From Treponema bryantii (lineage in GTDB: Bacteria; Spirochaetota; Spirochaetia; Treponematales; Treponemataceae), in assembly GCF_036492245.1 (NCBI RefSeq), contig NZ_AP025286.1, positions 3,162,001-3,226,000 of the forward strand: a stretch of DNA of 64,000 bases, given 5' to 3'. The translations under genes were made by a program, and so were the position numbers. Under the pieces are notes generated by a model. It searched no databases. It saw only the letters and a list, made by a program, of their open reading frames with translations, and had not been told where the DNA came from. Shown here piece after piece: positions 1 through 16,970 of the stretch (positions within the stretch are counted from its first letter, which is position 1; every line of letters begins with the position of its first letter).

Positions 1-2
1 AG

Positions 3-506
3 GAACTTGAAGTTCCTGAATGGGATTATTTCGTTTCTGAAATCCAGACAATTTACCGCCTTACAGATGAAGAAACAGATAAGTTTTCTAATAGCACTAC
101 AGCAAAAATTATCGCTGCTATACCTTTTGTAGCAGGATGTTACCGCCCTGAAGTTACCGCTATTGCACATCTTTCTTTGTACATGAATGAGATTAAGGGA
201 TTCCAGAAATATTATGCATGCAATCCTTTAGATGACTGCGATTTATTTGAGCGACTAGAACCTATTTCTCATTTCCGTGGCGGTGACAAGAAAATAATCG
301 AATGTGGAATGAATACTCTGGCCTATATAATGATTGAAGGGTATCATAAATCAGAAAAATTTGATGCAGCGCATGGTAATTATAACCCTTTTGTTTCAGG
401 AAACTGGAATTATAAGAGTCTTAAAAACATGCTAAGTAAAAAGGTTTTTGTTGATTTTAATCCTTTTATTATTATCTTACCATCGATTGGTGGTGGTTAC
501 TGGTAA
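3..506 (+). CDS. Unidentified protein, C-terminal part only
   Basis: The reading frame is open from the first bases of the window to the stop at 506, so this is the 3' portion (about 167 codons) of a longer gene cut by the window edge. A possible internal TTG start at 177 is not needed, because the frame has no stop upstream of it. The protein is mostly hydrophilic with a hydrophobic stretch near the C-terminus (IIILPSIGGG). I recognise no domain. It ends 5 bases before the next start, so it is probably co-transcribed with the membrane regulator downstream. The frame is certain, the function unknown. Confidence 0.75.
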   Translation, partial: ELEVPEWDYFVSEIQTIYRLTDEETDKFSNSTTAKIIAAIPFVAGCYRPEVTAIAHLSLYMNEIKGFQKYYACNPLDDCDLFERLEPISHFRGGDKKIIECGMNTLAYIMIEGYHKSEKFDAAHGNYNPFVSGNWNYKSLKNMLSKKVFVDFNPFIIILPSIGGGYW

Positions 507-511
507 TAACA

Positions 512-1318
512 ATGACAATTATATACTCGAAAAAATTCATTAAAGCCGTCTCAATTTTTTCAATCGTAGCTGCAACCCTTTTAACTGCACGAACAGGAAT
601 GCGTATTTTTGATATTATTGTTAATTATTCAGATTATACAGTTTTATCAAAACTACAGTTTTTCAAGTTTATTAGCATAATAGTAAATAATCTGATTTTT
701 ATAGGTATTTTTATTTTTTTGATTTTTAAACCTCAAAGATTTATTCTACTTGGAGTGATTGCCTTATTTATTTCTATAGATAATCTCATAAGTAATGTCC
801 AATCTCCTTATATGGGAATACCTATGTATACGCTAAGTATTGCAACATTTGCAGTACGAGGTTTCTTCTCAAAAAAAACAAAATTAAAAATCTCTTTCTT
901 TACTGCAATTTATATTATCAGCTTAATACTTCCTGTTCTTTTTGATGATGATTTTATCGAACATATGATTACAAAAATAGCCATTTCATTTGTCACTCTT
1001 ATTGCTCTTTTCTTTTTTACAGAATATGCAATGCAAAAAGGAACAAAACAGGCTACAAAAGATAAAGTCTTAAATTTAGCAGCATTTAAAGGACTCGACC
1101 GCAGCGATATGTATCTTTTGCAGCAGGTTCTTGATAACGTAAAATATAAGGAAATTGCACAGAAAATTCATGGCAGTGAGGGAGCCCTTCGCAATAAACT
1201 CAGTAAAATTTATAAAGTTCTTGAAGTGGGCGACCGCACTGGTTTTCTAACTATTTATTCCGGCTACGAATTAATTTATGAACCGGAATTAATAGACTCA
1301 CTTATAAACCAATCTTAG
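512..1318 (+). CDS. Membrane-anchored LuxR-like transcriptional regulator
   Basis: A 268-residue protein with about six hydrophobic helices in residues 10-175 and a cytoplasmic C-terminal helix-turn-helix at about 190-250. That domain contains LDRSDMYLLQQVL, YKEIAQKI and ALRNKLSKIYKVL, which resembles the LuxR/GerE recognition region. It probably senses something at or in the membrane and acts on DNA while anchored; no ligand can be named. It follows the preceding gene by 5 bases. The last 27 codons have a near-identical copy at 15926-16006 on the far side of the peptide-synthetase island, so this gene marks the left border of that island. Confidence 0.7.
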   Translation: MTIIYSKKFIKAVSIFSIVAATLLTARTGMRIFDIIVNYSDYTVLSKLQFFKFISIIVNNLIFIGIFIFLIFKPQRFILLGVIALFISIDNLISNVQSPYMGIPMYTLSIATFAVRGFFSKKTKLKISFFTAIYIISLILPVLFDDDFIEHMITKIAISFVTLIALFFFTEYAMQKGTKQATKDKVLNLAAFKGLDRSDMYLLQQVLDNVKYKEIAQKIHGSEGALRNKLSKIYKVLEVGDRTGFLTIYSGYELIYEPELIDSLINQS

Positions 1319-1320
1319 TT

Positions 1321-1397
1321 CCTGTTCCAACAAATTGTATTTTGTAAATGGCTTAAGGGCATTGAAACCTATGTAAGAATTTATTGTAATGATATCT
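1321..1397 (-). pseudogene. Remnant of pyrF (orotidine 5'-phosphate decarboxylase fragment)
   Basis: Read on the minus strand, these 77 bases translate without a stop into 25 residues that match the intact PyrF at 16485-16560 at about 18 of 25 positions (shared DIITIN, GF and PFTKY). At the base level about four in five positions agree. There is no start codon and no flanking pyrF sequence, so it is a fragment. It sits directly behind the luxR-like gene, mirroring the order luxR remnant then pyrF on the right side of the island. Confidence 0.75.
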
Positions 1398-1449
1398 TTA
1401 TCCAGGATCTATACAAAGCAAACCATAATCTTTAAAGAAACCACCTGAC

Positions 1450-1478
1450 GCTTATGAATATTATGTATATTCATAAGC
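1450..1478. terminator. 12-bp perfect hairpin at the end of the peptide island
   Basis: GCTTATGAATAT and its exact complement flank a 5-base loop. The hairpin overlaps the last six codons of the phosphopantetheinyl transferase gene. It lies where the island's minus-strand transcript ends but has no following U-run. It may slow polymerase or protect the mRNA 3' end rather than act as a classical intrinsic terminator. Confidence 0.4.
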
Positions 1479-2096
1479 ATCCAAATCAGATATTATTGAA
1501 TTAATTTCTTCCATATCGATATACACTACTTTTTCTTTTGTATTTGAAATAACAGAAAGAACAAAAGATTTATAAAACAAGGTATTCATGGAAAAATTAA
1601 AGTCAAATATATTTACATCTCTTATCTTCGCAGAAAGTCCTGTCCCTTTATATTTACAAAAACTTTCTTTAAGTGTCCATAATTTTGTAAAACCATTTGA
1701 ATCCATGCTAATTTGTTTTATTTCATCACTGCAAAAAAAACGCTCTGCTACAGATTCATCAAAATTTACATATTCCTGTACATCAACACCAATATTTGAC
1801 GTACTAATTCCACAGGCGACAGCATTCTTACAATGGGAAAAACTTATAAATAAGTTTGGAAAACCATCGAGATAAGGTTTACCATTTTCATGTTTATAAA
1901 CTTCTATTTTATTCCTTATACCAAATTCCCTGAATAATCCGACACGAAGTAATATAAAAACTATAATTGATAATTTTCTATCAATTTGAAATTTATATTT
2001 TTTTGAGTATTTTCTTCTTATTTCTGATACATACTTTTCATAGTTTATTAAATATGTATCAGAAATTTTATCCAGATCTGAAAAGAAATAGACCAT
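1461..2096 (-). CDS. Sfp-type 4'-phosphopantetheinyl transferase
   Basis: This 211-residue protein carries the Sfp-superfamily signature: NGKPYL and FISFSHC in the middle, IGVDVQ (magnesium-binding Asp) at about residues 102-107, and KLWTLKESFCKYKGTGL at about 139-155 with the WxxKE core. It would transfer 4'-phosphopantetheine from CoA to the carrier-protein serines of this cluster (two inside the synthetase, two free). It is the last gene of the island operon, 2 bases after the preceding stop. Its position next to four carrier domains supports dedicated activation of this pathway, though it could also serve the acyl carriers at 42.2-42.7 kb. Confidence 0.9.
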   Translation of the reverse strand: MVYFFSDLDKISDTYLINYEKYVSEIRRKYSKKYKFQIDRKLSIIVFILLRVGLFREFGIRNKIEVYKHENGKPYLDGFPNLFISFSHCKNAVACGISTSNIGVDVQEYVNFDESVAERFFCSDEIKQISMDSNGFTKLWTLKESFCKYKGTGLSAKIRDVNIFDFNFSMNTLFYKSFVLSVISNTKEKVVYIDMEEINSIISDLDAYEYT

Positions 2097-2098
2097 AA

Positions 2099-3109
2099 TT
2101 ATTTATTAAAAACTTCTTCTAATGTTTTATAAATTTCATCTAGTTTATTCTTTTCAACAGTAATAACATTTGTCATCTGCTCTATTATCTGATCCATTAA
2201 TTCTTGATTCTTTGTAATTGAAAAACGTATTACTCTATTACGAATAACCTGGTATTCACTAATAATATAATCATATAGTTCAATATACTGATTTAATAAA
2301 TCAGTATTACATTCTTGTGCTAATAATTCAAATCTTGCTTTCATAAGAACTTTTTGTTCATATAATCCCTGCAATGCCCGAACATCATCGTCTTTTCCAG
2401 AAGCAACATCATTTATTAAATACTTCAAAATTATATCATGAATTACGAATCCACTTTCAAATTTAGTTGGAATAAAAATTTCAAACATATCTCGCTTTAT
2501 GCTATTTTTATATTCAAAAAATTGTGTCAAAATTTCATTTTTATCTAATGCAAGATTAAGTTCTTTATTTACTGGAGTTAGTAAATGTACATTTGTGTAA
2601 TATTCTGTACCACCAATATTCGGATGATCCAAAGTATTATAACCATCTTTTATTTCTTCATATGAACAAATAAACTTTTGATATTTTCTCTGTAAATTAT
2701 CAGCACATAAAAAACTTTGTGTCTCATCGTCATATCCATATAAAAATATTTCATGGACAAAATTATAATTTTTATAGAATGGATGTTTTGGATTATAAAA
2801 GCTATTTATATACAAAAAGATATATTTTCCCTTATTCAAATACTCCTTCATTTTATCTACGAAATCACAATTGTTTTCTCCAAAAGCTTCCTGCTTTATT
2901 TCCTCATGTTTTATCAATGGACATTCATCTATAATACTTTTATACGTTTTAAAGAAAATAATATTATTGGATTTTAAGTAATTAATCTGTGTAAGATAAT
3001 TACACATCCATATTTTCATATCTCTATTCATTGGTGTTATTGCAAATATATCTCCATAAATAGGAAATACATTTATAAATGGTTTATGTAAATCTAATTC
3101 TATCTTCAT
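2099..3109 (-). CDS. BtrH/C39-like protein 3, probable Cys-less paralogue
   Basis: 336 residues. It shares with the proteins at 7070 and 9177 a core of the type (F/L/V)H-x-(I/F)-hydrophobic-x-G/D-(Y/F) followed by LC-x-D; here it reads VHEIFLYGYDDE and FLCADN. This resembles the BtrH N-terminal / C39-like papain fold, which moves an aminoacyl group from a carrier protein in butirosin synthesis. At the N-terminus, where the siblings have a candidate nucleophile cysteine (FPICSYP, DCFQSAL), this one has FPIYGDI, so the nucleophile looks replaced by Tyr. It may be a scaffold or regulator of the other two. The ATG at 3109 is preferred: AGAGGAG lies 10 bases upstream, whereas the ATG at 3118 is too close to it. 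Family assignment is by eye only. Confidence 0.6.
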   Translation of the reverse strand: MKIELDLHKPFINVFPIYGDIFAITPMNRDMKIWMCNYLTQINYLKSNNIIFFKTYKSIIDECPLIKHEEIKQEAFGENNCDFVDKMKEYLNKGKYIFLYINSFYNPKHPFYKNYNFVHEIFLYGYDDETQSFLCADNLQRKYQKFICSYEEIKDGYNTLDHPNIGGTEYYTNVHLLTPVNKELNLALDKNEILTQFFEYKNSIKRDMFEIFIPTKFESGFVIHDIILKYLINDVASGKDDDVRALQGLYEQKVLMKARFELLAQECNTDLLNQYIELYDYIISEYQVIRNRVIRFSITKNQELMDQIIEQMTNVITVEKNKLDEIYKTLEEVFNK

Positions 3110-3110
3110 T

Positions 3111-4115
3111 TTATGCATTCTCCTCTAATAAATCACATACAATATCTTTTAATTCACGATTAGTTATATTTATATCTTGAATTTCATTCATATAGTCTTC
3201 CATTAGTACTTTAATAACAGATAATAAACTTTCATTTTCAATCAAAATCTTATAATCATTATTATTTTCATCATAAGTTATACAATCATTTCCAAGCTTC
3301 TTTTTCAAAAGACTTAAAAAATTGATATCTGAATGATTCATTCTAATAGAGAAAATTTTATCTGTCCGATATTTTTCGTAGAATTCATTTAAAAATCCGT
3401 TAAATACTAAATTGCCATGCTCAATAATTATTAACTTGTTACATACTTCACTAATATCATCAAAATTATGACTAGTAATAATTATTGTTGCTCCATATTT
3501 CTTATTATATAATTTCAAGAAATCGCGAATATTATTTTGTGAAATAATATCAAGTCCAATTGTTGGTTCATCAAGAAAAACTACTTTTGGCCTATGAATT
3601 AATGAAGCTATTAATTCCATTTTCATTCGTTCACCCAACGATAATCGTCTAACTTGTATATGTAACAATTCACTTACATGTAAAGTTTCTACCATTTCAG
3701 CAAATAAAGCATCATAATCTTCATCGGAAACTTCATATATAGACTTGTTTAATTCAATTGAGTCGATTGCAGGTAAATCCCACATCAATTGACTTTTATT
3801 TCCCATAACAATTCCAATTTGTTTCAAAAATTCTGATTTCTTATCATATGGATTATAACCAAGAACAGAAACACTTCCTTTTGTTGGATTCAAAATACCA
3901 GATAAAATTTTCATTGTTGTGGTTTTACCTGCTCCATTTAATCCAACATAACCAGTTATGGAGCCTTCTTCGATATCCAAACTGATATTATTCAATGCTG
4001 TTTTATGTAATTTTTTACGTAAAAAGAAATTTTTTAAAGATCCTTTAATTCCTTTTTCTTTCTCATAATACTCATATATCATGCTTAAATTTTTTATATT
4101 TATTACATTTTTCAT
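3111..4115 (-). CDS. ABC exporter ATPase subunit
   Basis: A 334-residue nucleotide-binding subunit. Walker A is GLNGAGKT at about residues 58-65, the signature is LSLGERMKME, Walker B is VVFLDEPTIGLD, and the switch histidine lies in ITSHNFDD. A basic N-terminal stretch (KGIKGSLKNFFLRKK) precedes the fold, as in ATPases that pair with DUF990/ABC-2 permeases. It would energise export of the peptide product through the permeases at 4134-4931 and 8380-9180. It is 18 bases downstream of one permease gene and ends beside the BtrH-like gene start. Confidence 0.92.
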   Translation of the reverse strand: MKNVINIKNLSMIYEYYEKEKGIKGSLKNFFLRKKLHKTALNNISLDIEEGSITGYVGLNGAGKTTTMKILSGILNPTKGSVSVLGYNPYDKKSEFLKQIGIVMGNKSQLMWDLPAIDSIELNKSIYEVSDEDYDALFAEMVETLHVSELLHIQVRRLSLGERMKMELIASLIHRPKVVFLDEPTIGLDIISQNNIRDFLKLYNKKYGATIIITSHNFDDISEVCNKLIIIEHGNLVFNGFLNEFYEKYRTDKIFSIRMNHSDINFLSLLKKKLGNDCITYDENNNDYKILIENESLLSVIKVLMEDYMNEIQDINITNRELKDIVCDLLEENA

Positions 4116-4133
4116 ATATAACTCCTAGATTTA

Positions 4134-4931
4134 TTAACTTGACGCACTTACATATTTTCGTAATCCAAATTTAAAAATCAAGTTTGAAATTTGATAAAAT
4201 ATAACCATTATTATGAAAGATAAAACAACCTTTTTTAAGGATATTGAATTTGTAATTGCTAATACAGGAAAGTTAAATGCAACAGCCAATGGAATAATGT
4301 ATGTAAATATTTTTTGAACAATTAACGGATATACAGAAATTGGTTTATTTCCTATATTATATAACTGAAAAAATATTTTCATACCAACATCAATTTTAAT
4401 AGACCAGAATGAAATACACATGATAGAAAAGAAAATACTATAAAGAATAATAACAGCATTTACAAAAACAATTACACTATAGATAATTCCTTTAAATGTA
4501 ATGGGTATTTTATAATGGATGATACAAAATATTAGAAGAATGATTTCAATAATAAAATTCGGTAACTGTGATACAGTTGAATTTGATAATGAAATTAATA
4601 ATCTATTATTTATTGGTTTTAATATAATATGATCTAATTTTCCTTCATTTATCAGTGATGGTAGTTGATACAATCCTCCGACAAACAACAATGTTATTAC
4701 ACAATCCAATAAAGCTGAAATTAGCACTAATATGATTGATTGTTCTTTTGTCCATCCACCAATGGTTTCAACATTTTGATATATTACAAGGAAAAACAAA
4801 TAGTTACTAAGTACTATTGTTAATTCAAAAGTACCTCGCAATATAAAATCTGCTTTATACTCCATTTGTTGCATTAAGTTACTAGTAAATAATTTTACAT
4901 AGATTTTGAAAAATCTATTAATATTTTTCAT
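4134..4931 (-). CDS. ABC-2 type permease subunit A
   Basis: 265 residues with about six membrane helices and a short cytoplasmic N-terminus (NINRFFKIYVKLFTSNLMQQMEYKADF). The sequence around EGKLDHIILKPINNRLL is the coupling-helix region typical of the DUF990/ABC-2 permease family, which comes as an unequal pair with one ATPase. The second half of the pair is at 8380-9180. The gene sits 8 bases after sbnA and 18 bases before the ATPase, firmly inside the island operon. It is expected to form the membrane path for product export or self-protection. Confidence 0.85.
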   Translation of the reverse strand: MKNINRFFKIYVKLFTSNLMQQMEYKADFILRGTFELTIVLSNYLFFLVIYQNVETIGGWTKEQSIILVLISALLDCVITLLFVGGLYQLPSLINEGKLDHIILKPINNRLLISLSNSTVSQLPNFIIEIILLIFCIIHYKIPITFKGIIYSVIVFVNAVIILYSIFFSIMCISFWSIKIDVGMKIFFQLYNIGNKPISVYPLIVQKIFTYIIPLAVAFNFPVLAITNSISLKKVVLSFIIMVIFYQISNLIFKFGLRKYVSASS

Positions 4932-4939
4932 AAAACCAC

Positions 4940-5857
4940 CTAATAGATAATTCCCATATAACGATCACCCTTATCTGGGAAAACAGTAACAACATTTATT
5001 GGTTTATCAAATTCTTTTCCTGCAAAATATTTTTTGATTGCAGCATATAACGAGCCAGAAGAGCCACCTGCAAGAATTAAGTCTTCTTCAATTAATTTAT
5101 TGCAACACTCAATTGATTCCTTTTCATTTACTATTACTACTTCATCTATTTTTGCATATTTTAAGATATCAGGAACCTGACTCGAACCGATACCTGGGAT
5201 ATTTCTTTTTTTAGGTTTCTGACCAAAAATAATAGAGCCCTCAACATCTACCGCAATTATTTTAATATTTGGATTTTCATCTTTTAATCTAGTAGATATA
5301 CCAGAAATTGTTCCTCCAGAACTTACTGCAATAAAAGCATAATCAATTTTATTAAGTTCATGAACAATTTCTTCTGCAACAGTATGATAATATGCATCCT
5401 TCATGTAAACGTTAGTATATTGATTAATCCAATATGAATTTTCATGCGTTGCAACATATTCTTTTACAATTTTAATTCTTTCTAATAAATAGCCACCACA
5501 TTCATCCATTTTATCTGCTACAATTATATTCTTACATAGTTTAGATAATATCTTATAATTACATTCCGTTGTTTTAGGATCAATAACACAAACGAAATTC
5601 ATATTTTTATTTTTTAAATAACTTGCTAAAGCAATACCAAAATTTCCTGATGATGATTCAACTATTGTAGTATCTGGTTTAATTATTTTTTCTTTCAATA
5701 ATTTTTCTATAACATACGCGGCAGAACGATCCTTTATGCTTCCAGATGGATTACTTCCCTCTAGTTTTGCATAAACATTAATATTTTTATTCTGAAAACT
5801 ATTTATCCTTACTAACTGTGTATTTCCTATTCTTTCATTATATGTATTAATTAACAT
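4940..5857 (-). CDS. sbnA: SbnA-like N-(2-amino-2-carboxyethyl)-L-glutamate synthase
   Basis: 305 residues, PLP-dependent, cysteine-synthase fold. The PLP lysine lies in GSIKDRSA (about residue 43), the phosphate loop is ESSSGNFGIALA, and a distal GGTISG loop is present. CVIDPKT and GGYLLERI are features I associate with SbnA rather than CysK. SbnA condenses O-phospho-L-serine with L-glutamate to give the intermediate that SbnB cleaves to L-2,3-diaminopropionate. The sbnB homologue lies upstream with one carrier-protein gene between them. The ATG at 5857 has GGAAAGG 7 bases upstream; a TTG two codons earlier is too close to that site. Confidence 0.9.
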   Translation of the reverse strand: MLINTYNERIGNTQLVRINSFQNKNINVYAKLEGSNPSGSIKDRSAAYVIEKLLKEKIIKPDTTIVESSSGNFGIALASYLKNKNMNFVCVIDPKTTECNYKILSKLCKNIIVADKMDECGGYLLERIKIVKEYVATHENSYWINQYTNVYMKDAYYHTVAEEIVHELNKIDYAFIAVSSGGTISGISTRLKDENPNIKIIAVDVEGSIIFGQKPKKRNIPGIGSSQVPDILKYAKIDEVVIVNEKESIECCNKLIEEDLILAGGSSGSLYAAIKKYFAGKEFDKPINVVTVFPDKGDRYMGIIY

Positions 5858-5872
5858 AACCAATCCTTTCCT

Positions 5873-6115
5873 TTAAGCATTTTTTATTAATTCAATAAAA
5901 TTTTTGATCGAAACAATCGAATCAAAATCTTTAATAATGTATTCATCAATATGAATCTTAAATTCTTCTTCAATAAAAATAAGAATTTTTGTAAAACCAA
6001 ATGAATTTAAACCAAACTGGGTTAAATCCGTCTCTAGATCGACTGTCTCTAAATCGATATTCAAATCACCATTTTCTGAAATAATCTTTCTTACTTTTTC
6101 TTCTATTAAATCCAT
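5873..6115 (-). CDS. Free-standing carrier protein 2
   Basis: 80 residues, four-helix carrier-protein pattern. The phosphopantetheine serine lies in FGLNSFGF at about residue 38. The acidic N-terminal helix and IDEYIIKDFDSI match acyl/peptidyl carrier proteins of discrete NRPS systems. It lies between sbnB and sbnA, which suggests that it carries diaminopropionate or a product of it. A clear AGGAAAGGA site lies 7 bases before the ATG. The motif LNS instead of GGNS makes it more ACP-like than the carrier at 8130. Confidence 0.88.
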   Translation of the reverse strand: MDLIEEKVRKIISENGDLNIDLETVDLETDLTQFGLNSFGFTKILIFIEEEFKIHIDEYIIKDFDSIVSIKNFIELIKNA

Positions 6116-6116
6116 C

Positions 6117-7082
6117 TTATAAATCCTTTCCTATATTTTTAGCCCGTGCAGTATCATAAATGTATCTTCCAATACACATATCAAATACAGCCATTCCCAT
6201 AGGATTAAACATTATCAATTTATCTGTATCTATTTTTTCAATCTCATTTTTTAGAATATATTCATCAATACTAATAGTTTTATCTTTAGTCAGATTCTTA
6301 TATTTATAAAAGTTTTCTATATCAGTATTTTCTCTACATACTTCGTCCCAATCATCTACAATAATTGTTGCATTATCCAAATACTGATAAAAATCTACTG
6401 TGTAATCTCTTAATGAAACATTCATCAACAAAGCTCCCTTTTTAGGTTTTTTATTAATATATGGAGCATCTGATACAGTACAAGTAAAAACTATATCTGA
6501 ATTTAAGAACGCATCTTCCCACTTACTAACTAATTTTATTTTTTTATTATTTTTTATAACTTGATCTTCAGACATATCACGTAAATCAAATACACGATAT
6601 TCTGTTACACTTTCTCCTAAGATAGTTTTTAACATTTCGAAATGCGCTTTTCCGATAGGTCCCCATCCCATTATACCAATTTGTAAATTCGATAAGTTTC
6701 TATTTTTTTTATAATTTGATATGATTGAACCGGAAACAGAAGCTGTTCTTAAAATACTTAAATATGGAGAATTAATAATTGAAATTGGAACGCCTGTTTC
6801 AGTATCATTTAATACTACAACACTATTAGCTCTTCTAATATTCTTTTTAATATTATCAGGAAAACTAGCTATCCATTTAATTCCTGAAATATTAATATCA
6901 CCTCCAACATAAGAAGGCATAGCAATAATTCTATTCTTTGGATTTCCAAATCGTAAATAAGGCTTTAAAGGTTGAGCAAAATCTTTCTCATTAATAAGCT
7001 TTAAACCTTTTTCTATATAACTAATAGAATCCACAAAATTTAAATTTAATTCACTTAATTCATTATCACCTAAATATAACAT
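6117..7082 (-). CDS. sbnB: SbnB-like N-(2-amino-2-carboxyethyl)-L-glutamate dehydrogenase
   Basis: 321 residues of the ornithine cyclodeaminase / mu-crystallin fold. N-terminal blocks DFAQPLKPYLRFG, NRIIAMPSYVGG and GIKWIASFP are the recognisable SbnB features, followed by the NAD-binding GIMGWGPIGKAHFEM (about residues 138-152). SbnB oxidatively cleaves the SbnA product to L-2,3-diaminopropionate and 2-oxoglutarate. The start overlaps the end of the preceding gene by 13 bases, and the stop is 1 base before the carrier-protein start, so translation is probably coupled. Together with sbnA it fixes diaminopropionate as a building block. Confidence 0.92.
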   Translation of the reverse strand: MLYLGDNELSELNLNFVDSISYIEKGLKLINEKDFAQPLKPYLRFGNPKNRIIAMPSYVGGDINISGIKWIASFPDNIKKNIRRANSVVVLNDTETGVPISIINSPYLSILRTASVSGSIISNYKKNRNLSNLQIGIMGWGPIGKAHFEMLKTILGESVTEYRVFDLRDMSEDQVIKNNKKIKLVSKWEDAFLNSDIVFTCTVSDAPYINKKPKKGALLMNVSLRDYTVDFYQYLDNATIIVDDWDEVCRENTDIENFYKYKNLTKDKTISIDEYILKNEIEKIDTDKLIMFNPMGMAVFDMCIGRYIYDTARAKNIGKDL

Positions 7083-8113
7083 TCCATTACTTCCTTTACT
7101 TTATTCCAGTTTTTATAATTTTCTAATTCCAATTCTTGAATTTCAGTTAGTTTTTGTTTTAGTTTTTCTGTATATTTCCATTCTTTCATATAAAGGCTTT
7201 TTTCTAAAAGAAAACCAACATTTACCCACAAATCAGCCAAATTTGAAATATTATTTTTTAATTCCTCTACTTCTTCTTTGTCTGACTCTGAAAATGAAAT
7301 ATCTTGTAAGCATTTTTCCAAATATCTAATACTTGTTTTTTTCTCAAGAGAAATAGAACATAAATCTTTTATTGTGAATCCCTTTGTATCTTTTTTATTG
7401 TCCAAATAATAAAACAAATCACTAATAAAAAGATTTAATACATTCAATGTATTATTTTTTTCGTTACAAATTGTACTTAGATCATCAAAAAAAACTTTTT
7501 TGAAATCAGATTTCTCATTTTCTATTTTTACTACTTCATATGTTTTTGTATTAGAATTCATGTCCAAATGATATTTGAAACAATGTTCTAAATCAGAAAG
7601 CTTAATCTTAAAAAAAGGATTTACAGCAGCTTCGACACAGTTAAATTCTTCTTTATCAAAATCATAATCGGTTATTAAAATAGAATGAAATCCACTTTTT
7701 TTTCCATATTGTACCTTTGTTGGTGTAAACATTAAGTTATATTCACAAATTACAGGTATACCTTTATTTAATTGTTGGATAATAAAATCCTTAAAATCAT
7801 TAAAATTATTATGCTCTTTATATAGAATTTTCACCCCATATAATTTAAGTAATCTATCTGGTAAATATCCAGATAGATTATTTTCTCCAGAATTAAATAC
7901 TTCTTTATGAAATTTTTTATCGATTCCAAATGAAATATTTAATTCAGAATCTAAATTCTCAATTAAACCATTTTTTTCATAAAAAAAAGAATTATTTAAA
8001 TATAAATAATCTAATCCATCAATTTTGTTATCAGCTAGCAATACAGCCTCAAACAGTGGATACGAACAAATTGGAAAAAATGGATATATATCATTTTTAT
8101 CAATTTGAATCAT
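7070..8113 (-). CDS. BtrH/C39-like cysteine acyltransferase candidate 2
   Basis: 347 residues. Candidate catalytic residues are the N-terminal Cys in FPICSYPLFEAV (about residue 14), the His in GFHSILITDYD, and an acidic residue in FNCVEAAVNP. The second half is helical and rich in Lys and Glu. It is related in layout to the proteins at 9177 and 2099. By analogy with BtrH it may transfer an aminoacyl group from the neighbouring carrier protein to an acceptor, or release it. The chosen ATG at 8113 has a perfect AAGGAGGA 4 bases upstream; a longer in-frame form starting at 8176 would overlap the carrier gene by 47 bases and is unlikely. Confidence 0.65.
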   Translation of the reverse strand: MIQIDKNDIYPFFPICSYPLFEAVLLADNKIDGLDYLYLNNSFFYEKNGLIENLDSELNISFGIDKKFHKEVFNSGENNLSGYLPDRLLKLYGVKILYKEHNNFNDFKDFIIQQLNKGIPVICEYNLMFTPTKVQYGKKSGFHSILITDYDFDKEEFNCVEAAVNPFFKIKLSDLEHCFKYHLDMNSNTKTYEVVKIENEKSDFKKVFFDDLSTICNEKNNTLNVLNLFISDLFYYLDNKKDTKGFTIKDLCSISLEKKTSIRYLEKCLQDISFSESDKEEVEELKNNISNLADLWVNVGFLLEKSLYMKEWKYTEKLKQKLTEIQELELENYKNWNKVKEVMECYI

Positions 8114-8129
8114 ATAATCCTCCTTTGCT

Positions 8130-8390
8130 TCAACTTTTTTTATCATTAATTTTTGAAACAGTTTCTTCAACAACATGTTTCAGACTTAATTCCTCAATAA
8201 AATCTGCAACATCTAATTCAACATCAAATTGATCATCAATTGCAGAAAGTAATAAAACTAGTTTTAATGAATTCCCCCCTAAATCATAAAAATCAGTTTC
8301 AAAATCAACATTATCAAGTTCCAGGATATCAATCCAAAGTTTTTTTATACATTCTTCAATAATCTTTTCTTCCAATACACTAACCTCCAA
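8130..8390 (-). CDS. Free-standing peptidyl carrier protein 1
   Basis: 86 residues with the canonical carrier motif DFYDLGGNSLKLV, the phosphopantetheine serine being at about residue 42. The stretch is strongly acidic, as usual for carrier proteins. It overlaps the upstream permease gene by 11 bases and is followed after 16 bases by a BtrH-like gene with a perfect Shine-Dalgarno. The pairing of a discrete carrier with a discrete transferase suggests a trans-acting step in assembly. Confidence 0.92.
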   Translation of the reverse strand: MEVSVLEEKIIEECIKKLWIDILELDNVDFETDFYDLGGNSLKLVLLLSAIDDQFDVELDVADFIEELSLKHVVEETVSKINDKKS

Positions 8391-9180
8391 AAGCTGAATA
8401 CTTCGCTAAGCCCTTTTTCCACATTATTCGTGAAAAAATAAATAAAATTAAAATCCATAAAAAACCAACTAAAGACTGCATTACCATTTCCTTTTGCTCA
8501 TATCTACCCTGTAAAATTCCAACAGGATAAAAAGCAAGATATTGGAATGGAGAATACTGTAAAATCTTGAATATTGGCTTTGGTAAAATTGATAATGGAA
8601 AAACCTGCCCACTGACAATATTTTTAAGAATATCTAAGGTCATAAACAGGCTAGTTATACTATGCATAAAAAAAGCACACGTACTTAATGAAAATAAAAT
8701 AAGAAATTGAATTAAATATCCTAGTACTAATGCAATCACAAAAAAAATAACTATTGAATAATTGAATTCCAGAGTAATGCTTGATCTAAGTATAACACCC
8801 AATACAATTAAAGGTATTATGCCAACAAATATAAAGATTACATTTTCTGGTAAAGAATAAATAAATTTGTATTTCATAAAATCGTATGGACGAACTAGAA
8901 ATTGATTAATAGAACCATACTTAATACTATCTGCAACACCATGGTAGTCATAGCCTGCTTTTAGAAGATTTGAAACAATTAACATAATGAAATAATAAGT
9001 AATCATTTCATTATTCGTATAACCAAAAGCATTATATGATCTTTCTCTATACACTGTATTCCAAACTGCCATTGATGCAAGTGTTGGTATAAATGAATAA
9101 AGTAACCACATAAAACTATTCAATCTATATTCAAATCTATTTAAAACAGATACTTCAAATATTTTTAAGAATTTGCTCAT
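8380..9180 (-). CDS. ABC-2 type permease subunit B
   Basis: 266 residues, about six membrane helices, DUF990-like. The region IKYGSINQFLVRPYDFMKYK matches the coupling loop of the partner at 4134 (LDHIILKPINNRL), so the two look like the halves of one heterodimeric exporter. The gene start overlaps the end of the BtrH-like gene by 4 bases (ATGA type), and the stop lies inside the carrier-protein gene. The exporter genes are split, with biosynthetic genes inserted between them. Confidence 0.87.
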   Translation of the reverse strand: MSKFLKIFEVSVLNRFEYRLNSFMWLLYSFIPTLASMAVWNTVYRERSYNAFGYTNNEMITYYFIMLIVSNLLKAGYDYHGVADSIKYGSINQFLVRPYDFMKYKFIYSLPENVIFIFVGIIPLIVLGVILRSSITLEFNYSIVIFFVIALVLGYLIQFLILFSLSTCAFFMHSITSLFMTLDILKNIVSGQVFPLSILPKPIFKILQYSPFQYLAFYPVGILQGRYEQKEMVMQSLVGFLWILILFIFSRIMWKKGLAKYSAFGG

Positions 9181-10121
9181 ATATTACTTTCCCTCTTTAG
9201 AATTTTTAGAGTTTGTAATTCAATGATTCTTAACTCTTCAAGAATAGATATGAAAATATCGCTTTCGATTTCTTTCCCAAGCATAAGTTGCATTAAACGA
9301 ATATTTAATTCTTTCCATTTCCTATCTGCTTCATAAAGATAATCAACGGCTTCTAGTATCGATAAATTATTTTCATAATTTCTAAGTAGTAGGATTGCTA
9401 AAGAATAACGACAATTACCTATATTTTTGATTTTCAAAGTAAGTTTATTTAATTCTGGATTCAGATTTTCGGAAAGCATTTCTTTAATTCGACAAAGATC
9501 TGCAAATTCTTTTTGCAATCTTGCATAGTTGTCGTTTATCATTTCTTCACTATTATTGAACCCTTTACTTATAAAAGGAATAAAAGACTCATTCTTTTCT
9601 GTAAAGTCTTTTATTCCTTTTAATGTACAAATACTTTTTATTCCTTGTACTAAATTTTGATGAGAAAGATAAAACTCTTTTACTTCACTCTCAAAAGGAT
9701 CAAAACATAAATATTCATTTCGCTCATCAGAAAATCCACTAATTATAAATGAATGAAGTAAATGCTCCTTTTGATATGCTTTATTCCAGGAACAATAAAA
9801 TCTATCAATATTTACAATGCAATCGTTTTTTTTGTTTAACTCTTCCTTTAAGCTTTTTAAATCAGAATCAATTAATACCTTTTCTAAATATAAACCGCAA
9901 AACTCTTTGAAGAATTTATCAAAATCTTCAGATTCAATAATTTGTAAATTATCATATAAGTATTTACAATCATTCTTCAGATTAAAACCCCAATACAAAC
10001 ATGTAATTACAAATATATCTCTATTAAACGTTTTTTTACTTAAGAAATATAAAGCTGATTGAAAACAATCTAATCCTTCTTTATATTTTTCTAATATTTT
10101 TTTAACTTTATTTTGTTCCAT
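9177..10121 (-). CDS. BtrH/C39-like cysteine acyltransferase candidate 1
   Basis: 314 residues with a recognisable papain-like triad in order: Cys in DCFQSALYFL (about residue 19), His in LHSFIISGFSDE (about residue 125) and Asp in YLCFDPFE (about 142). The remaining half is helical. This is the best-preserved of the three paralogues and directly follows the synthetase gene (17 bases). With no thioesterase on the synthetase, it is the leading candidate for removing the peptide from the last carrier domain, by transfer or condensation. The fold assignment is by motif spacing, not by search. Confidence 0.65.
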   Translation of the reverse strand: MEQNKVKKILEKYKEGLDCFQSALYFLSKKTFNRDIFVITCLYWGFNLKNDCKYLYDNLQIIESEDFDKFFKEFCGLYLEKVLIDSDLKSLKEELNKKNDCIVNIDRFYCSWNKAYQKEHLLHSFIISGFSDERNEYLCFDPFESEVKEFYLSHQNLVQGIKSICTLKGIKDFTEKNESFIPFISKGFNNSEEMINDNYARLQKEFADLCRIKEMLSENLNPELNKLTLKIKNIGNCRYSLAILLLRNYENNLSILEAVDYLYEADRKWKELNIRLMQLMLGKEIESDIFISILEELRIIELQTLKILKRESNI

Positions 10122-10138
10122 TTCTATATACCGAACTT

Positions 10139-13100
10139 TTATATTTTTTCTTCTATTAATTTAGCCACTTCCTGTACAGAAGCTATTCCGCCATATAAAT
10201 CAGAAATTTCCAAATCATAATCTAATTCATCTGATATTTCTGCACAAAGCATAACAGCAGATAAAGAATGACCTCCAATAGTAAAAAAGTTATCTGAATT
10301 AGAAAAATCATCTTTTTTCAAAACAATTTCAAAGATACCTCTAATTGTTTTTTCCATTTCTGTCATTTCTGGAATATCACATTTGGTTGTAGTCTTTTGT
10401 TGACTACTACTCATATCATAAATGGCTTTCAATTCATTAAATTTTATTTTCCCGTTTCCTGTTTTCGGAATACTATCAACGCGAATAAAACTTACTGGTA
10501 ACATATAATTTGGATATTTCTTCTCGAGTATCTCTCGTAAATCCTTTGATTTATCTTCATCATGTGATGTATACAATACTGAATACTCATATGTATTGTC
10601 ATTTTCATAATACACACATGCAACAGCATCAATATTTTTACACTGCTTTAATTCGGATTCTATTTCAGCCATATTTATACGATATCCACGGCATTTAATA
10701 GTTCGATCTTTTCTACCAATAAAAGTAAATTTTCCATCACCATTAATGAAAGCTACATCTCCAGGAAAATAGCATTTTTCATTATTAAGTTTTGTAGTAA
10801 ATCTATTCCCTATATAACCATTGGATACACATTTACCAAATACTGCTACATTTCCTTCAACTCCAAATGGCTGCTCCTGAAGATTTTCATTCAATACTTT
10901 TATGCAGCATCCTTTAATTACTTTCTCTTCAGCAACAAGTCCTTCTTTATTTATTTGTTGAATTAAAATTGTAGAAGAAGTTTCTGTTGTTCCATATGTA
11001 TTATATAATGTTGCAGTAGGGAAATATTCGTAAAAAGTCTTAACCAAATCTTTGTCCAATTTATCACTACCAGAAAAAACCATTCTCAATGAATTAAGTG
11101 ATACATTTTCTCTATCAAGAGCATGTATAATTACTCTTAAAAGAGAAGGAGAAAGAGTTATATATGAAACATTATTTTGTTTCAAAGTATTGATTAATAC
11201 ACTTTCATTTAATACTTCTAATTTATCTAACATTACTGTAGTAACTTTAGTATATAAACCTACAAAGAATTCAAATAAATGAGTTACTAAGGTAAAAGGT
11301 CTTAGACTTCCAATAATATCATCATGCTTTAATGGATAATCTTCTATCTGAGCAAAAATTCTGTTATATACGCTATCTCTTCGTATTTCTACATACTTTT
11401 CTTTTCCGCTAGAACCAGATGTCAGAATAATGCAAGCTATATTTTCATTACTTTCCTTTGCTTTATTTGTTTTGTATACAAAATAATTATTATACTTTCC
11501 AATCCGTTCATATTGTTCATCAATAAGACTTTCTGTTGAAAAAATATAATTAATGCTTATATCATCAACAATTTCATTAATTGAATCTTTAGGCCTTGTT
11601 ATATCACAAGGCAAGTATGCAACCTTATTTTGATAAAACGAATAAAGAAGTATTAAATAGTCGATATCTTTTTTTCCATAAATTATGACTCTGTCTTTAC
11701 TATTTATTCCATATTTCACAAATTCTTTAGAGACATTTTTTATAGATGCATATAATTCTCCAAACGAAATAGAACTATCTAGTGTTTTATATGCTATTTT
11801 CTCTTTATTGGATTCCAAGTCATGCTCAATCCATTTTAACAGATCATTTTCGCACTGAATTTTAAAAGATTCTTCACGTCTATCCAAATCTTTGATATAA
11901 AAATAATACTTTTCATCAATAACATTTGTATCTTTTATTAAATCTTTTCCAGCATCCAAAATCTTCTTAACAATTAATTCATAACTTTTTAAATAATTAG
12001 TTATAGTTTCATCCTTGAACAAATCTGTCAAATAAGATAATTTCACAAATACCTTTCCATCTTGTTCATTACCATACATTGCCAAATCATATTTTTTATA
12101 ACCAATATCTATTTCTTCAAAATTTACCGTAATGCTTGAATCAACAGGGAAATCAATTTTTGGGAAATTAATCATATCAAACATTACCTGGAATACAGGG
12201 GTATAACTCGTATTTCGTTTTATTCCCAAATCCTCTACAATCCATGGGAAAGGATATCTAGAATTATCAATTGCTGAATTTACTATAGATTTTGTTTTAT
12301 GAATCAAATCATCAAGAGTATCAGTTCCGTTAATATTAAATCTTAACGGAAGCATATTTAGGAAATCTCCATATAAATTCTCAGTTTGTTCAGAATTTCT
12401 ACAACCATATGGAGTTCCAATCATAACTTCATCTTGATTACTATATTTTGACAATAAAACGTAATATGCTGATAGCAAGAAAACAAACAAAGTAATGTTA
12501 TTATTCTTACAGAAATCTTTTATTCTTTTTGATAAGTCTACATCAAAGGTAATTCCTTGAGATCTTCCTTTATAAGTTGGAATTTGAGGCCTTGGGAAAT
12601 CATAAGAAACATCTAATACCGGCAATTCTCCTGACAAATTCTCTTTCCAGAATTTTCCTTCTTTTTCAAGTTTAACTCTTGTTATATTTTTTCTTTGCCA
12701 CTCTGCATAATCATGAAATTGTAATACTTTCTTCTTTTCAATAGATATTAAATCTATCTGTCTATATACTTCTATAAACTCCTTTATAAACTGTCGCATT
12801 GCCCAAGCATCCATTATAATTTCATGCATTGTTATAACTACAGTTATCTGATTCTCAGAAAGTTTGAATATTTTTATTCTAATAACACTATCATTTTCAA
12901 TATCAAATGCTTGCTGTGCATCTTTATAAGCAACATCTTTCATTTCAGATTCAGCAGATTCAAAATCAAGCTTGGATAAATCAATATATTCATAATTTGA
13001 AAAACTATATGGTTCAATAAATTGTTTTACTTCATAATCGACTTCAACAAAGCGAGTTCTCAAAACATCATTATTACATATTAAATAATTAATTGTTTTA

Positions 13101-15175
13101 TTAATTTTTTCATAGTTTGCATTTCCAAATATATTCAGCAATCCTTGAAATGTATAAAATGGAACATTCTTTGATAATTTCCATAAGAACCATTGTCCAC
13201 ATTGTCCATAACTTGCAGCAAAATAATTCTCTTTATTAGAGGCTGTAATAATATTCTGATTATCTGTAGCAACACTTTTATAAACATAACTACATAATTC
13301 AATTAAATCTTTAGATGAATAGAAATCACTGAACGAAATTACAACATTCAATTCTTTTCTGATTCTAGATATTGTTTGAATTGCAGTAATTGAATTTCCT
13401 CCCAACTCAAAGAAACTGTCATTTCTGCTTATTGGAGAAACATTCAAAATATTTGACCATATTTCAGCTATTTTCTTCTCTACCTCATTACAAGGAGCTT
13501 CATAAGTTTTACATTCAACTTCACGAACAAGTTTTGGTTCTGGAAGCTTTTTTTGATCTACTTTTCCATTTGCAGAAACTGGAATTTGGGCTATACTAAC
13601 AAACTGTTCAGGAACCATATAATATGGTAATTTCGTTTTTAACCATTCTTTTAGTTTTATAAAATCAATATCATCAGATACAATATATGCTACCAGTTTT
13701 TCCTGCTGCTTTGTTTTACGATCATTCTGATCATTATGTAAATAATAAACAAAATCTGATTTAAATGTATGTTTTACGACACAACAATTATTAACTTTGT
13801 CATATCCTCTGATTACTTCTTCTATTTCTTCCAACTCAATTCTATAGCCATTTAACTTTATTTGTCTGTCTACTCGTTCCCAAAAAATATAATTTCCATT
13901 CTCATAAGAAACTAAATCACCTGTTTTGTAAACTTTTGTTGTTATGCCATGAATTTTTACTTCTTTGAAAGCATCTGCGGTCTTTTCAGGATTATTTATA
14001 TAACCATTTCCTAAACATATACCACTTACATATAACTCCCCTCTCTCTCCTTCTTCTGCAAAAATAACCTCATTATTTGAATCAATCTCCCTAACAACAT
14101 ATAAATTTGCATTTTTAATTCCTTTTCCTATAGGAACTTTCTTTTCATTATTTGAAATAGTTTTAGGAACTAAATAATGAGTAATATCATCTGAACATTC
14201 AGTCGGTCCATATGCATTTACAAGAATACCGTCATAATTCATTGAATACCAATTACAACATAAGGAAACAGGCAATGATTCTCCAGTTAGTAATATAAAA
14301 CGTAATAATGATAAATTTTCATGCAGAATTGGATTATCTTTTATTTCTTGTAATAATTCTGTAAATAATGTAGGTACAAATTCAACGATATTTATTTTAT
14401 TATTCTTTATATAATTTAATAAAAAACTTATATCTTTTGCATTATCACTTTTTATAATATGAACTTCTCCACCAACAAGCAAAACAGACAAAAATTGCCA
14501 TACAGAAATATCAAAAGATTGCGGTGCAGTTTCTAATAAAATAGTGTCTTTCGAAATATTTAATATTTCAATTTTATTTCGAAGATGATTCATCATACCA
14601 ATATGATTAACAATTGCCCCTTTAGGCTTTCCTGTTGTTCCTGATGTAAAAATTATGTACGCTTCATTTTCACAATATTGATTCAAATTAAACTTTTGTG
14701 GTTTTTGAAAGTTCTCTATACATAACTTTTTCACACAGTCAATTTCTTTAAGTTTTTCACAATATTCTTTATTTGTTATAAATATCTTTACATCAGCATC
14801 TTCAATCATTTGCAATTTTCGATCATTCGGTGCATTAGGATCGATAGGTATATAAATTCCACCAACCTTAAAAATTGCAATAATTGTAGCTAAGTACATT
14901 ACAGATCGATCCATACAAACCGCAATTTTATTATTCTCCATTTCTTTGCTTACATAATAAGCAATTGAATCAGAAATTGAATTTAGTTCTGCATACGATA
15001 CATAACTAGACTCATCTCTCGCAGCAATTTTATCTGGATACATTTGTACAATTTTTGTGAAAACATCAATAAATTTATCTTGCTCTGTAAAACCACAACT
15101 TGCCAATTCTACATCTACTTTTTTAACCATTTTAAAATAATTCCCCTTATAAGATTCTTTATTACATATATACAT
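10139..15175 (-). CDS. Non-ribosomal peptide synthetase, A-T-C-A-T
   Basis: 1678 residues. Domains: A1 about 25-550 (core TSGTTGKPKG at 177-186), T1 around Ser595 (LGGNSIT), C about 640-1075, A2 about 1115-1590 (core TSGSSGKEK from 1252), T2 around Ser1637 (IGGHSLS). No thioesterase or reductase follows. The A1 pocket read by hand is D-I-W-E-L-T-A-D-D (Asp222 is the alpha-amine anchor); its extra acidic residues would suit a diamino acid such as diaminopropionate. In A2 the anchor position is Val1297, so its substrate may lack an ordinary alpha-amino group. The C-domain HHxxxDG reads H784-E785-x3-D789-A790, so the usual catalytic second His is Glu. A second start at 15130 has AAGGGG 12 bases upstream; the start at 15175 has no clear ribosome site. 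Confidence 0.93.
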   Translation of the reverse strand: MYICNKESYKGNYFKMVKKVDVELASCGFTEQDKFIDVFTKIVQMYPDKIAARDESSYVSYAELNSISDSIAYYVSKEMENNKIAVCMDRSVMYLATIIAIFKVGGIYIPIDPNAPNDRKLQMIEDADVKIFITNKEYCEKLKEIDCVKKLCIENFQKPQKFNLNQYCENEAYIIFTSGTTGKPKGAIVNHIGMMNHLRNKIEILNISKDTILLETAPQSFDISVWQFLSVLLVGGEVHIIKSDNAKDISFLLNYIKNNKINIVEFVPTLFTELLQEIKDNPILHENLSLLRFILLTGESLPVSLCCNWYSMNYDGILVNAYGPTECSDDITHYLVPKTISNNEKKVPIGKGIKNANLYVVREIDSNNEVIFAEEGERGELYVSGICLGNGYINNPEKTADAFKEVKIHGITTKVYKTGDLVSYENGNYIFWERVDRQIKLNGYRIELEEIEEVIRGYDKVNNCCVVKHTFKSDFVYYLHNDQNDRKTKQQEKLVAYIVSDDIDFIKLKEWLKTKLPYYMVPEQFVSIAQIPVSANGKVDQKKLPEPKLVREVECKTYEAPCNEVEKKIAEIWSNILNVSPISRNDSFFELGGNSITAIQTISRIRKELNVVISFSDFYSSKDLIELCSYVYKSVATDNQNIITASNKENYFAASYGQCGQWFLWKLSKNVPFYTFQGLLNIFGNANYEKINKTINYLICNNDVLRTRFVEVDYEVKQFIEPYSFSNYEYIDLSKLDFESAESEMKDVAYKDAQQAFDIENDSVIRIKIFKLSENQITVVITMHEIIMDAWAMRQFIKEFIEVYRQIDLISIEKKKVLQFHDYAEWQRKNITRVKLEKEGKFWKENLSGELPVLDVSYDFPRPQIPTYKGRSQGITFDVDLSKRIKDFCKNNNITLFVFLLSAYYVLLSKYSNQDEVMIGTPYGCRNSEQTENLYGDFLNMLPLRFNINGTDTLDDLIHKTKSIVNSAIDNSRYPFPWIVEDLGIKRNTSYTPVFQVMFDMINFPKIDFPVDSSITVNFEEIDIGYKKYDLAMYGNEQDGKVFVKLSYLTDLFKDETITNYLKSYELIVKKILDAGKDLIKDTNVIDEKYYFYIKDLDRREESFKIQCENDLLKWIEHDLESNKEKIAYKTLDSSISFGELYASIKNVSKEFVKYGINSKDRVIIYGKKDIDYLILLYSFYQNKVAYLPCDITRPKDSINEIVDDISINYIFSTESLIDEQYERIGKYNNYFVYKTNKAKESNENIACIILTSGSSGKEKYVEIRRDSVYNRIFAQIEDYPLKHDDIIGSLRPFTLVTHLFEFFVGLYTKVTTVMLDKLEVLNESVLINTLKQNNVSYITLSPSLLRVIIHALDRENVSLNSLRMVFSGSDKLDKDLVKTFYEYFPTATLYNTYGTTETSSTILIQQINKEGLVAEEKVIKGCCIKVLNENLQEQPFGVEGNVAVFGKCVSNGYIGNRFTTKLNNEKCYFPGDVAFINGDGKFTFIGRKDRTIKCRGYRINMAEIESELKQCKNIDAVACVYYENDNTYEYSVLYTSHDEDKSKDLREILEKKYPNYMLPVSFIRVDSIPKTGNGKIKFNELKAIYDMSSSQQKTTTKCDIPEMTEMEKTIRGIFEIVLKKDDFSNSDNFFTIGGHSLSAVMLCAEISDELDYDLEISDLYGGIASVQEVAKLIEEKI

Positions 15176-15262
15176 TTAGAAGAGCTTCTTATCATAAACC
15201 TCTTCAAAATTGATGGAATGCAAAAAAAGTTTATTGATTTATTTATTGGAATAAAACATCGT

Positions 15263-15290
15263 ATTACAAGTAGTTTTCAAAGTAAGACAA
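15263..15290 (-). promoter_or_regulatory. Possible promoter of the synthetase gene
   Basis: On the minus strand TTGTCT (15285-15290) and TGTAAT (15263-15268) are separated by 16 bases, giving a leader of about 80 bases. The match is moderate in very AT-rich DNA. Read-through from the XRE gene 144 bases upstream is an equally good explanation. Confidence 0.3.
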
Positions 15291-15319
15291 CATAATATGT
15301 ATTTTAAAACATCATTTTA

Positions 15320-15622
15320 TTAACTATATTCATTAAACAAACGCAGAATTTCGTTTTTTAGCCTTGAAATATTTTTATTAAGTATTTTAACTTCTTGAAG
15401 ATTATTATATGGATTCTCTAAGAAAAGTTGATAAGGAAACAAATTTGTTGCATTACATATTTTATCTATTACTTCAACAGAAGGAAAATATTTTCCATTT
15501 TCCAATGCATTGTAATAATTTGTTGAAACATCAATTAATTCAGCAAATTGAGATTGGGTTAATTCAAGTTGATTACGGTAGTATCTAAGATTATTAATCA
15601 ATACTTTTTGTGTATGATTCAA
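15320..15622 (-). CDS. XRE-family regulator of the peptide island
   Basis: 100 residues. An N-terminal helix-turn-helix lies at about 10-65 (LRYYRNQLELTQSQFAELI, then STNYYNALENGKYFPS), and a C-terminal helix is rich in Leu, Asn and Lys. The start is TTG at 15622, with AGGAG 7 bases upstream; the same frame holds no better ATG. It lies on the same strand 144 bases before the synthetase and is as AT-rich, so it belongs to the island and probably controls it. Its own promoter region carries three palindromes described separately. Confidence 0.85.
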   Translation of the reverse strand: MNHTQKVLINNLRYYRNQLELTQSQFAELIDVSTNYYNALENGKYFPSVEVIDKICNATNLFPYQLFLENPYNNLQEVKILNKNISRLKNEILRLFNEYS

Positions 15623-15687
15623 TTAACAACTCCTATTATTAATCTTACTTAAATAACTCCTCTCTTTATTGATAAAAAATCTTTTTA

Positions 15688-15716
15688 TTTATATTTATAT
15701 ATAGATTAAACATCAA
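15688..15716 (-). promoter_or_regulatory. Promoter of the XRE gene
   Basis: On the minus strand TTGATG (15711-15716), a 17-base spacer and TATAAA (15688-15693). The start site would be near 15681, giving a leader of about 58 bases. The three palindromes at 15735-15810 would then be centred near -60, -92 and -122. Confidence 0.5.
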
Positions 15717-15734
15717 TTAGTAAAACGTTTTCTT

Positions 15735-15810
15735 ATGACACATGTCATATCTTTTTTCAAAATTTTATGACAAATATCATAATATATATACTAATTATGA
15801 CTAAAGTCAC
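15735..15810. promoter_or_regulatory. Array of three RTGAC-N4-GTCAY palindromes
   Basis: ATGACACATGTCAT at 15735-15748, ATGACAAATATCAT at 15767-15780 and ATGACTAAAGTCAC at 15797-15810. Start-to-start distances are 32 and 30 bases, close to three helical turns, so all face the same side of the DNA. All three are preceded by TT and two of them are followed by AA. The TGA-N6-TCA spacing is that of CRP/FNR-family sites. Confidence 0.7.
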
Positions 15811-15842
15811 AACCTATTTTTTTATACATGTATATAGCAAAA

Positions 15843-15875
15843 AAAAGTCTGCCCATAACTAATGGACAGACTTTT
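15843..15875 (-). terminator. Intrinsic terminator downstream of pyrF
   Basis: AAAAGTCTG pairs with CAGACTTTT, extended by CCAT/ATGG after one mismatch, around the loop AACTA. On the minus strand it is followed by eight T. It lies about 120 bases past the pyrF stop and would end that transcript before the island. Confidence 0.75.
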
Positions 15876-15925
15876 GATTAGCGAATTAAAAGAAACAATA
15901 ATAACTTGCTGAATATAAAGAACTC

Positions 15926-16006
15926 GACCGCACTGGATTTCTGTCTATTTATTCCGGCTACGAATTAATTTATGAGCCGGAATTGATAGACACACCTACA
16001 AACTAG
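15926..16006 (+). pseudogene. 3' remnant of the luxR-like membrane regulator
   Basis: 26 codons and a stop that match the last codons of the gene at 512-1318 (shared DRTGF, IYSGYELIYEPELID), with about nine of ten bases identical over most of the length. The sequence upstream of it does not continue the gene, so it is a fragment. It overlaps the pyrF 3' end convergently by 11 bases. It is the right-hand counterpart of the intact gene on the left of the island. Confidence 0.85.
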
Positions 16007-16934: not shown

Positions 16935-16940
16935 GTGGAA

Positions 16941-16969: not shown

Positions 16970-16970
16970 T

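Follow-up and report, generated by a model that had tools for sequence, protein, structure and literature searches.

A low-G+C island of Treponema bryantii encoding a candidate thiotemplate pathway for an exported diaminopropionate amide

The window analyzed here, a 64-kb stretch of Treponema bryantii DNA, carries 13 open reading frames between 1461 and 15622, all on the minus strand: 12 close-packed biosynthetic genes and, 144 nt upstream of this run, the gene of an XRE regulator (15320 to 15622; HTH_3). The run begins with a nonribosomal peptide synthetase (NRPS) of 1,678 aa (10139 to 15175), whose order A1-T1-C-A2-T2 was established by Pfam (two AMP-binding, two PP-binding, and one Condensation domain), pocket codes, and motif positions, and in which Pfam detected no C-terminal thioesterase. 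It continues with BtrH1 (9177 to 10121), ABC-2 permease 1 (8380 to 9180; PF06182), the free PCP-like carrier protein CP1 (8130 to 8390; GGNSL, PP-binding 49 bits), BtrH2 (7070 to 8176), an SbnB homologue (ACEGA dehydrogenase; 6117 to 7082), the free ACP-like carrier protein CP2 (5873 to 6115; GLNSF, PP-binding 30 bits, PRK07081), and an SbnA homologue (ACEGA synthase; 4940 to 5863). ABC-2 permease 2 (4134 to 4931; PF06182, 167 bits), a DrrA-like ABC ATPase (3111 to 4115; family profile match), BtrH3 (2099 to 3118), and an Sfp-type phosphopantetheinyl transferase (PPTase; 1461 to 2096; ACPS 1.3e-11) complete the set. From the NRPS to the PPTase, intergenic distances range from -47 to +18 nt, and no Rfam element was found within window positions 1 to 17100. 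The initial annotation had described such a one-strand set with overlaps or short gaps, including an A-T-C-A-T synthetase without thioesterase, two free carrier proteins, a split ABC-2 exporter, and an Sfp-type transferase, and all 13 genes are indeed present with the families then named, according to Pfam and TIGR profiles.

Members of the SbnA and SbnB families are established to produce L-2,3-diaminopropionate (Dap) from O-phosphoserine and glutamate. The SbnA homologue, 43 to 53% identical to six homologues, exceeds the cut-off of the equivalog TIGR03945 (364 bits versus 349.95). The SbnB homologue, 45 to 51% identical to seven SbnB homologues of other organisms, stays under that of the equivalog TIGR03944 (292 bits versus 326.9), which is nevertheless by far its best model and the one matched by all 8 SbnB tested. 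On its sequence, it is best described as a divergent SbnB, assigned through its pairing with SbnA and not via the cut-off. These values argue for the supply of Dap by the pair, as previously proposed. The best plasmid-borne SbnB relative, in a Paenibacillus cellulosilyticus plasmid locus (L010), proved to belong to a different cluster, and our literature search found no described treponemal Dap product.

Alignment to a GrsA fragment gave the pocket codes. A1 displays the code DIWELTADDK, for which the literature gave no match, and the corresponding domain of L014, the locus with the best SbnB match, displays DIWEVTADDK. Of the 27 SbnB loci whose A domains could be read, 17 show the Dap-type pattern D[IV]W[EQ]x[TN]xDD, compared with 0 of 18 control loci, which comprised further NRPSs of this genome and loci linked to BtrH but retrieved without SbnB (Fisher p 8e-6, a guide only because related loci are not independent events). 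Through this genomic association with sbnB loci, as distinct from enzyme data, the code is tied to Dap, which A1 very likely activates.

Both T-domain serines of the synthetase are intact (GGNS at 592 and GGHS at 1634), and the condensation domain is full length (297 bits) and retains the motif Asp, but its motif at residue 784 reads HEIIMDA, with Glu in place of the second His of the canonical HHxxxDG. This second His is catalytic, and its loss normally kills the domain. Among 66 aligned condensation domains, including that of the window itself, HH is found in 61, with HR, PH, SH, or a gap in a few others. Hence, the cis condensation domain is likely inactive, judging from its motif, although it may function despite HE. 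In A2, Val occupies the position of Asp235, which binds the alpha-amino group, while the remaining core motifs look intact by eye; A2 would therefore probably activate an acid that has no normal amino group at the alpha position. The "short diaminopropionate peptide" previously suggested as the product is thus retained for its Dap moiety, but "peptide" is too specific given a condensation domain that is probably dead and an A2 that is probably not for an alpha-amino acid; "diaminopropionate amide" is the safer term. Elsewhere in the same genome, a separate large NRPS locus (L252, G000:C1:3004001-3022000) carries the codes DLTKIGEVGK, which we take to be of the Asn type, and DAFFLALIWK, each twice.

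The three proteins annotated as BtrH/C39-like each score singly between 15 and 24 bits, below the Pfam cut-offs of both BtrH_N (PF14399) and C39_2 (PF13529). Their relatives do pass: the L014 homologue of BtrH1 matches PF13529 (35.4 versus 24 bits), and a BtrH2-type relative in locus L222 matches PF14399 (33.2 versus 29.7 bits). With the invariant triad of BtrH1, this supports the family assignment, which is weak on the single scores. Searching 391 genomes of Clostridia, the class of L014, with a BtrH1 pair alignment gave matches in 16. In the alignment of 14 class I BtrH sequences, which are only 14 to 20% identical to BtrH1, the sole invariant columns are M1, C19, W112, H123, and D141, and since invariance of C19, H123, and D141 is what a Cys-His-Asp triad would produce, we propose Cys19-His123-Asp141 as the catalytic residues of BtrH1. 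The profile built from these 14 sequences gives a weak match (weak E value) to the ComA C39 peptidase, in which the Cys, His, and Asp positions coincide, and also lists AziU3. The secondary structure of BtrH1 places C19 at a helix start and H123 within a strand, as in papain-like enzymes. BtrH1 is likely a carrier-dependent amide synthase on this sequence pattern.

BtrH2 is probably active as well, with a candidate triad Cys37-His164-Glu182 that was assigned by eye, the His being invariant and the Cys column ambiguous in the multiple alignment. Its true start is probably Met22 (about 8113), beyond the end of CP1. It resembles both the L222 protein that passes PF14399 and C-terminal domains of NRPS/PKS synthetases in two loci, L126 and L166, which bear SCFYN and His...Glu. 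In L126 (3899 to 8701), the Cys-bearing BtrH-like domain is fused immediately behind the last T domain, and in L166 (3738 to 10328) it is fused at the synthetase C terminus, in both cases at the thioesterase position. No BtrH2 relative was found in other genomes among 393 of the same phylum-level group or in the plasmids and phages searched, and in viral contigs, single-protein pattern scans for BtrH and SbnA and an SbnB pair alignment gave no match. BtrH3 has no Cys at the catalytic site and keeps His122, and the aligned BtrH3-like members likewise have no Cys at this site; this group is large, matches being present in 29 of the 397 genomes sampled from the family to which L014 belongs. BtrH3 is therefore probably not a catalyst but a carrier-protein-binding or scaffold partner. 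The trio, listed under one label in the initial annotation, appears to combine a catalytic BtrH1, a probably catalytic BtrH2, and a BtrH3 without the nucleophile.

AlphaFold models of BtrH1 and BtrH2 made from six-sequence alignments were poor (pLDDT 51 and 44), and Foldseek with both models gave no E value below 0.07. The top of the list, all weak matches, contained GtgE, phytochelatin synthase, AziU2-U3, and CcbD for BtrH1 and AvrRpt2, phytochelatin synthase, GtgE, CtaG, and CcbD for BtrH2; this ranking, with papain-like enzymes first, is taken as a lead. In PDB sequence searches, no window protein had a significant match to CcbD or CtaG. Layout and triad type are common to these systems, but without significant sequence match, the BtrH-like proteins are not placed in the CcbD or CtaG families.

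Aligning the SbnB pair against species genomes retrieved 80 loci, the best match (50% identical) lying in L014, from a metagenome-assembled genome of Lachnoclostridium sp. UBA1308 (Lachnospiraceae). This uncharacterized locus shares with the island BtrH1, BtrH3, SbnA, SbnB, a PPTase, and the Dap-type code, here on a single A-T protein, and differs by fused ABC transporters in place of the ABC-2 type. Within the 13.6 kb covered, which ends at the right with the contig, no condensation domain, A2, BtrH2, or free carrier protein was found. In the DNA covered, then, a locus without a condensation domain repeats the combination of Dap supply, one loading module, and a BtrH pair. Together with the BtrH1 triad and the synthetases of other loci that carry a BtrH-like domain behind their last T domain, this gene set supports the earlier idea of assembly or release in trans. 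The second related locus, L222, likewise uncharacterized, comes from a genome of the host's family (G206) and resembles the island by its XRE regulator (101 bits), PPTase, BtrH3-like and BtrH2-like proteins, DrrA-like ATPase (247 bits), two permeases, and a carrier protein recognized by eye without a Pfam match. In the 20 kb covered, neither NRPS nor SbnAB was found, and it has instead a tRNA-synthetase-like protein, radical SAM proteins, and HMGL-type enzymes. Because L222 keeps the carrier protein, PPTase, BtrH pair, and exporter without NRPS and SbnAB, the comparison suggests that such clusters have their assembly and export genes in common and can swap those for supply.

Smaller associations were also observed. 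A cassette of carrier protein, Cys-less BtrH-like protein, and PPTase occurs in 10 loci (L128, L131, L132, L135, L137, L139, L141, L142, L143, and L144); in the two read gene by gene, L139 and L141, it stands amid housekeeping genes of Lachnospiraceae genomes. Another Lachnospiraceae locus (L151, 5905 to 17247) combines a carrier protein, a Cys-less BtrH-like protein, and an ABC-2 exporter with myo-inositol-1-phosphate synthase, a SAM-synthetase-like gene (by eye), and APH and NTP_transf_5 proteins, and looks like an aminocyclitol-type cluster.

Comparison with another genome of the same species, G286, delimits the island. A block of about 35.7 kb (C1:3142240-3177924) replaces about 1.9 kb in G286, where only XRE, d1, and d2, then pyrF, are found, and neither of the two clusters of the island. 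The part lying in the window (1319 to 15924) has a G+C content of 26% versus 39% in the remainder of the window, and the island extends about 20 kb leftward beyond it. The flanking genes d1 and d2 lie at 177 to 1318, d2 encoding a membrane protein with an HTH-like tail. On the plus strand at 15925 to 16003, a second copy of the 3' end of d2 (79 bp, 90% identical to window 1231 to 1309) marks the right junction, beside pyrF. As the flanks nearest the island are 92 to 99% identical to G286, d1, d2, and XRE copies just 79 to 84%, and the d2 remnant stands beside pyrF, the block was probably gained or exchanged as a whole. No integrase or transposase was recognized among the island genes read, so recombination in the flanks would be the simplest route of exchange.

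A second low-G+C cluster of the same island lies left of the window (L177, G000:C1:3144001-3163500, 16 to 17636). It contains a carrier protein, an AMP-ligase, an APH/nucleotidyltransferase (NTP_transf_5), an ABC ATPase with two permeases (ABC-2 exporter), a beta-lactamase-like protein, an amidohydrolase, a phosphorylase, a PPDK-like protein, a kinase, radical SAM proteins, a methyltransferase, and a 524-aa protein without Pfam match that resembles the fused BtrH-like proteins.

The XRE regulator is present as annotated, but it is not specific to the island, since a copy 78% identical occurs in the island-free genome of the same species. Upstream of its gene, three palindromes ATGACWnnWGTCAT with at most one mismatch (two with one) lie at 15735 to 15810, and four stand upstream of XRE in G286 (L176, 11149 to 11266). 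These counts, taken over whole sequences, were reached in 0 of 100 and 0 of 200 shuffles, and the arrays are likely operators. XRE as a marker of such clusters was rejected, XRE relatives being present in 160 of 274 family genomes, and around the closest of them the cluster-protein search found no carrier or BtrH neighbor.

We propose, with a probability of roughly 0.6, that this horizontally exchanged island encodes a thiotemplate pathway, with papain-fold amide synthases that act in the manner of lincosamide CcbD or closthioamide CtaG and make and/or release a Dap amide for secretion by the ABC-2 exporter. From the genes, motifs, code, conservation, and island observed, we infer the following reactions and product: (i) SbnA and SbnB would supply Dap from O-phosphoserine and glutamate; (ii) A1 would adenylate Dap and load it on T1 and perhaps on a free carrier protein; (iii) A2 would put a different carboxylate, without a normal alpha-amino group, on T2; and (iv) amide bond formation and release would have moved from the degenerate cis condensation domain to papain-fold enzymes. 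BtrH1 would pass a carrier-bound aminoacyl group to Cys19 and then to an amine activated by His123/Asp141, in a ping-pong manner like CcbD, and BtrH2 would probably perform a second such transfer or the release. The Cys-less BtrH3 may assist as a carrier-protein-binding partner, the PPTase would prime the carriers, and the ABC-2 exporter would secrete the Dap amide. A bolder version, which we advance tentatively and rate somewhat below even odds, would have all peptide or amide bonds made by a relay of trans papain-fold synthases between integrated and free carriers with the NRPS condensation domain dead, the island then belonging to a broad, so far undescribed class of exchangeable spirochaete and clostridial clusters, alike in carrier, BtrH pair, PPTase, and exporter but with swapped loading enzymes.

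The same genes could also encode an ordinary dipeptide NRPS, with the condensation domain working despite HE, A1 and A2 loading two residues, and the BtrH-like proteins just releasing the chain as trans-thioesterases or by transfer to a small amine or sugar. The full-length domain with its Asp and both T serines would fit, as does the activity of BtrH itself, an ACP:aminoglycoside acyltransferase (PMC10318531). We nevertheless consider this unlikely, as the catalytic His, kept in 61 comparators, is lost, A2 does not have the Asp that holds the alpha-amino group, and L014 shows no condensation domain within 13.6 kb.

SbnA and SbnB are siderophore genes in Staphylococcus aureus, and in two retrieved loci, L011 and L012, sbnAB adjoin IucA/IucC synthetases, so a Dap siderophore for iron capture, like staphyloferrin B and other SbnAB products, was weighed. 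It is improbable: none of the 13 genes encodes IucA/IucC, a siderophore receptor, or iron uptake, the exporter is of the DrrA plus PF06182 type, and the nearest SbnB relatives mostly stand by NRPS genes and not by IucA/IucC-type queries (IucA/IucC itself being outside that search). Least probable of all is that the BtrH-like proteins form no bond and act as peptidases or as maturation or immunity factors; their fold family does include many peptidases (PMC10318531), and the BtrH1 profile aligns to one of them, ComA, but none of the open reading frames stood out as a precursor peptide gene, and relatives stand repeatedly beside free carriers and adenylating enzymes or are fused to synthetases.

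Our preferred reading, a Dap amide made and/or released by papain-fold synthases, predicts that a spirochaete island yields a new metabolite for export, none such being described as far as we found, and would offer a compact case of bond formation shifted from a condensation domain to protease-like enzymes. Beyond this island, the Dap adenylation code may aid product prediction in many other clusters, and, judging from the related loci, anaerobes may hold a large group of thiotemplate clusters that are overlooked in annotation because the key enzymes score under Pfam cut-offs.

As early as 2010, papain-fold transacylases of the BtrH family had been noted in operons alongside carrier proteins (PMC2922099), and several known systems resemble parts of the island. 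Butirosin biosynthesis (BtrH/BtrI) also uses a free carrier protein and a BtrH-family acyltransferase; BtrH, however, acts on an aminoglycoside, and the three window proteins remain below the PF14399 cut-off. The closthioamide cta system (CtaG, CtaE, CtaH) differs by its building blocks, beta-alanine and hydroxybenzoate instead of Dap, by its description as NRPS independent, and by its AANH thioamide gene, which has no counterpart among the 13 genes. Yet it is likewise a thiotemplate pathway of an anaerobe with two free PCPs, in which the papain-like CtaG is described as the peptidyl transferase between two free carrier proteins (PMC6772006), and CtaG (9qvk) is in the Foldseek list of BtrH2. 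In lincosamide biosynthesis, CcbD and LmbD transfer an amino acid from its carrier to an amine through ping-pong catalysis involving Cys, His, and Glu (PMC12945683). They show no significant sequence similarity to the window proteins, BtrH1 would use Asp where CcbD has Glu, and the island has Dap supply and an NRPS but no sugar pathway. The use of free carrier domains and of a papain-like enzyme that forms an amide in a carrier-dependent way, described there (PMC12945683), is also what is proposed here, and CcbD (7yn1) appears in the Foldseek lists of both the BtrH1 and BtrH2 models.
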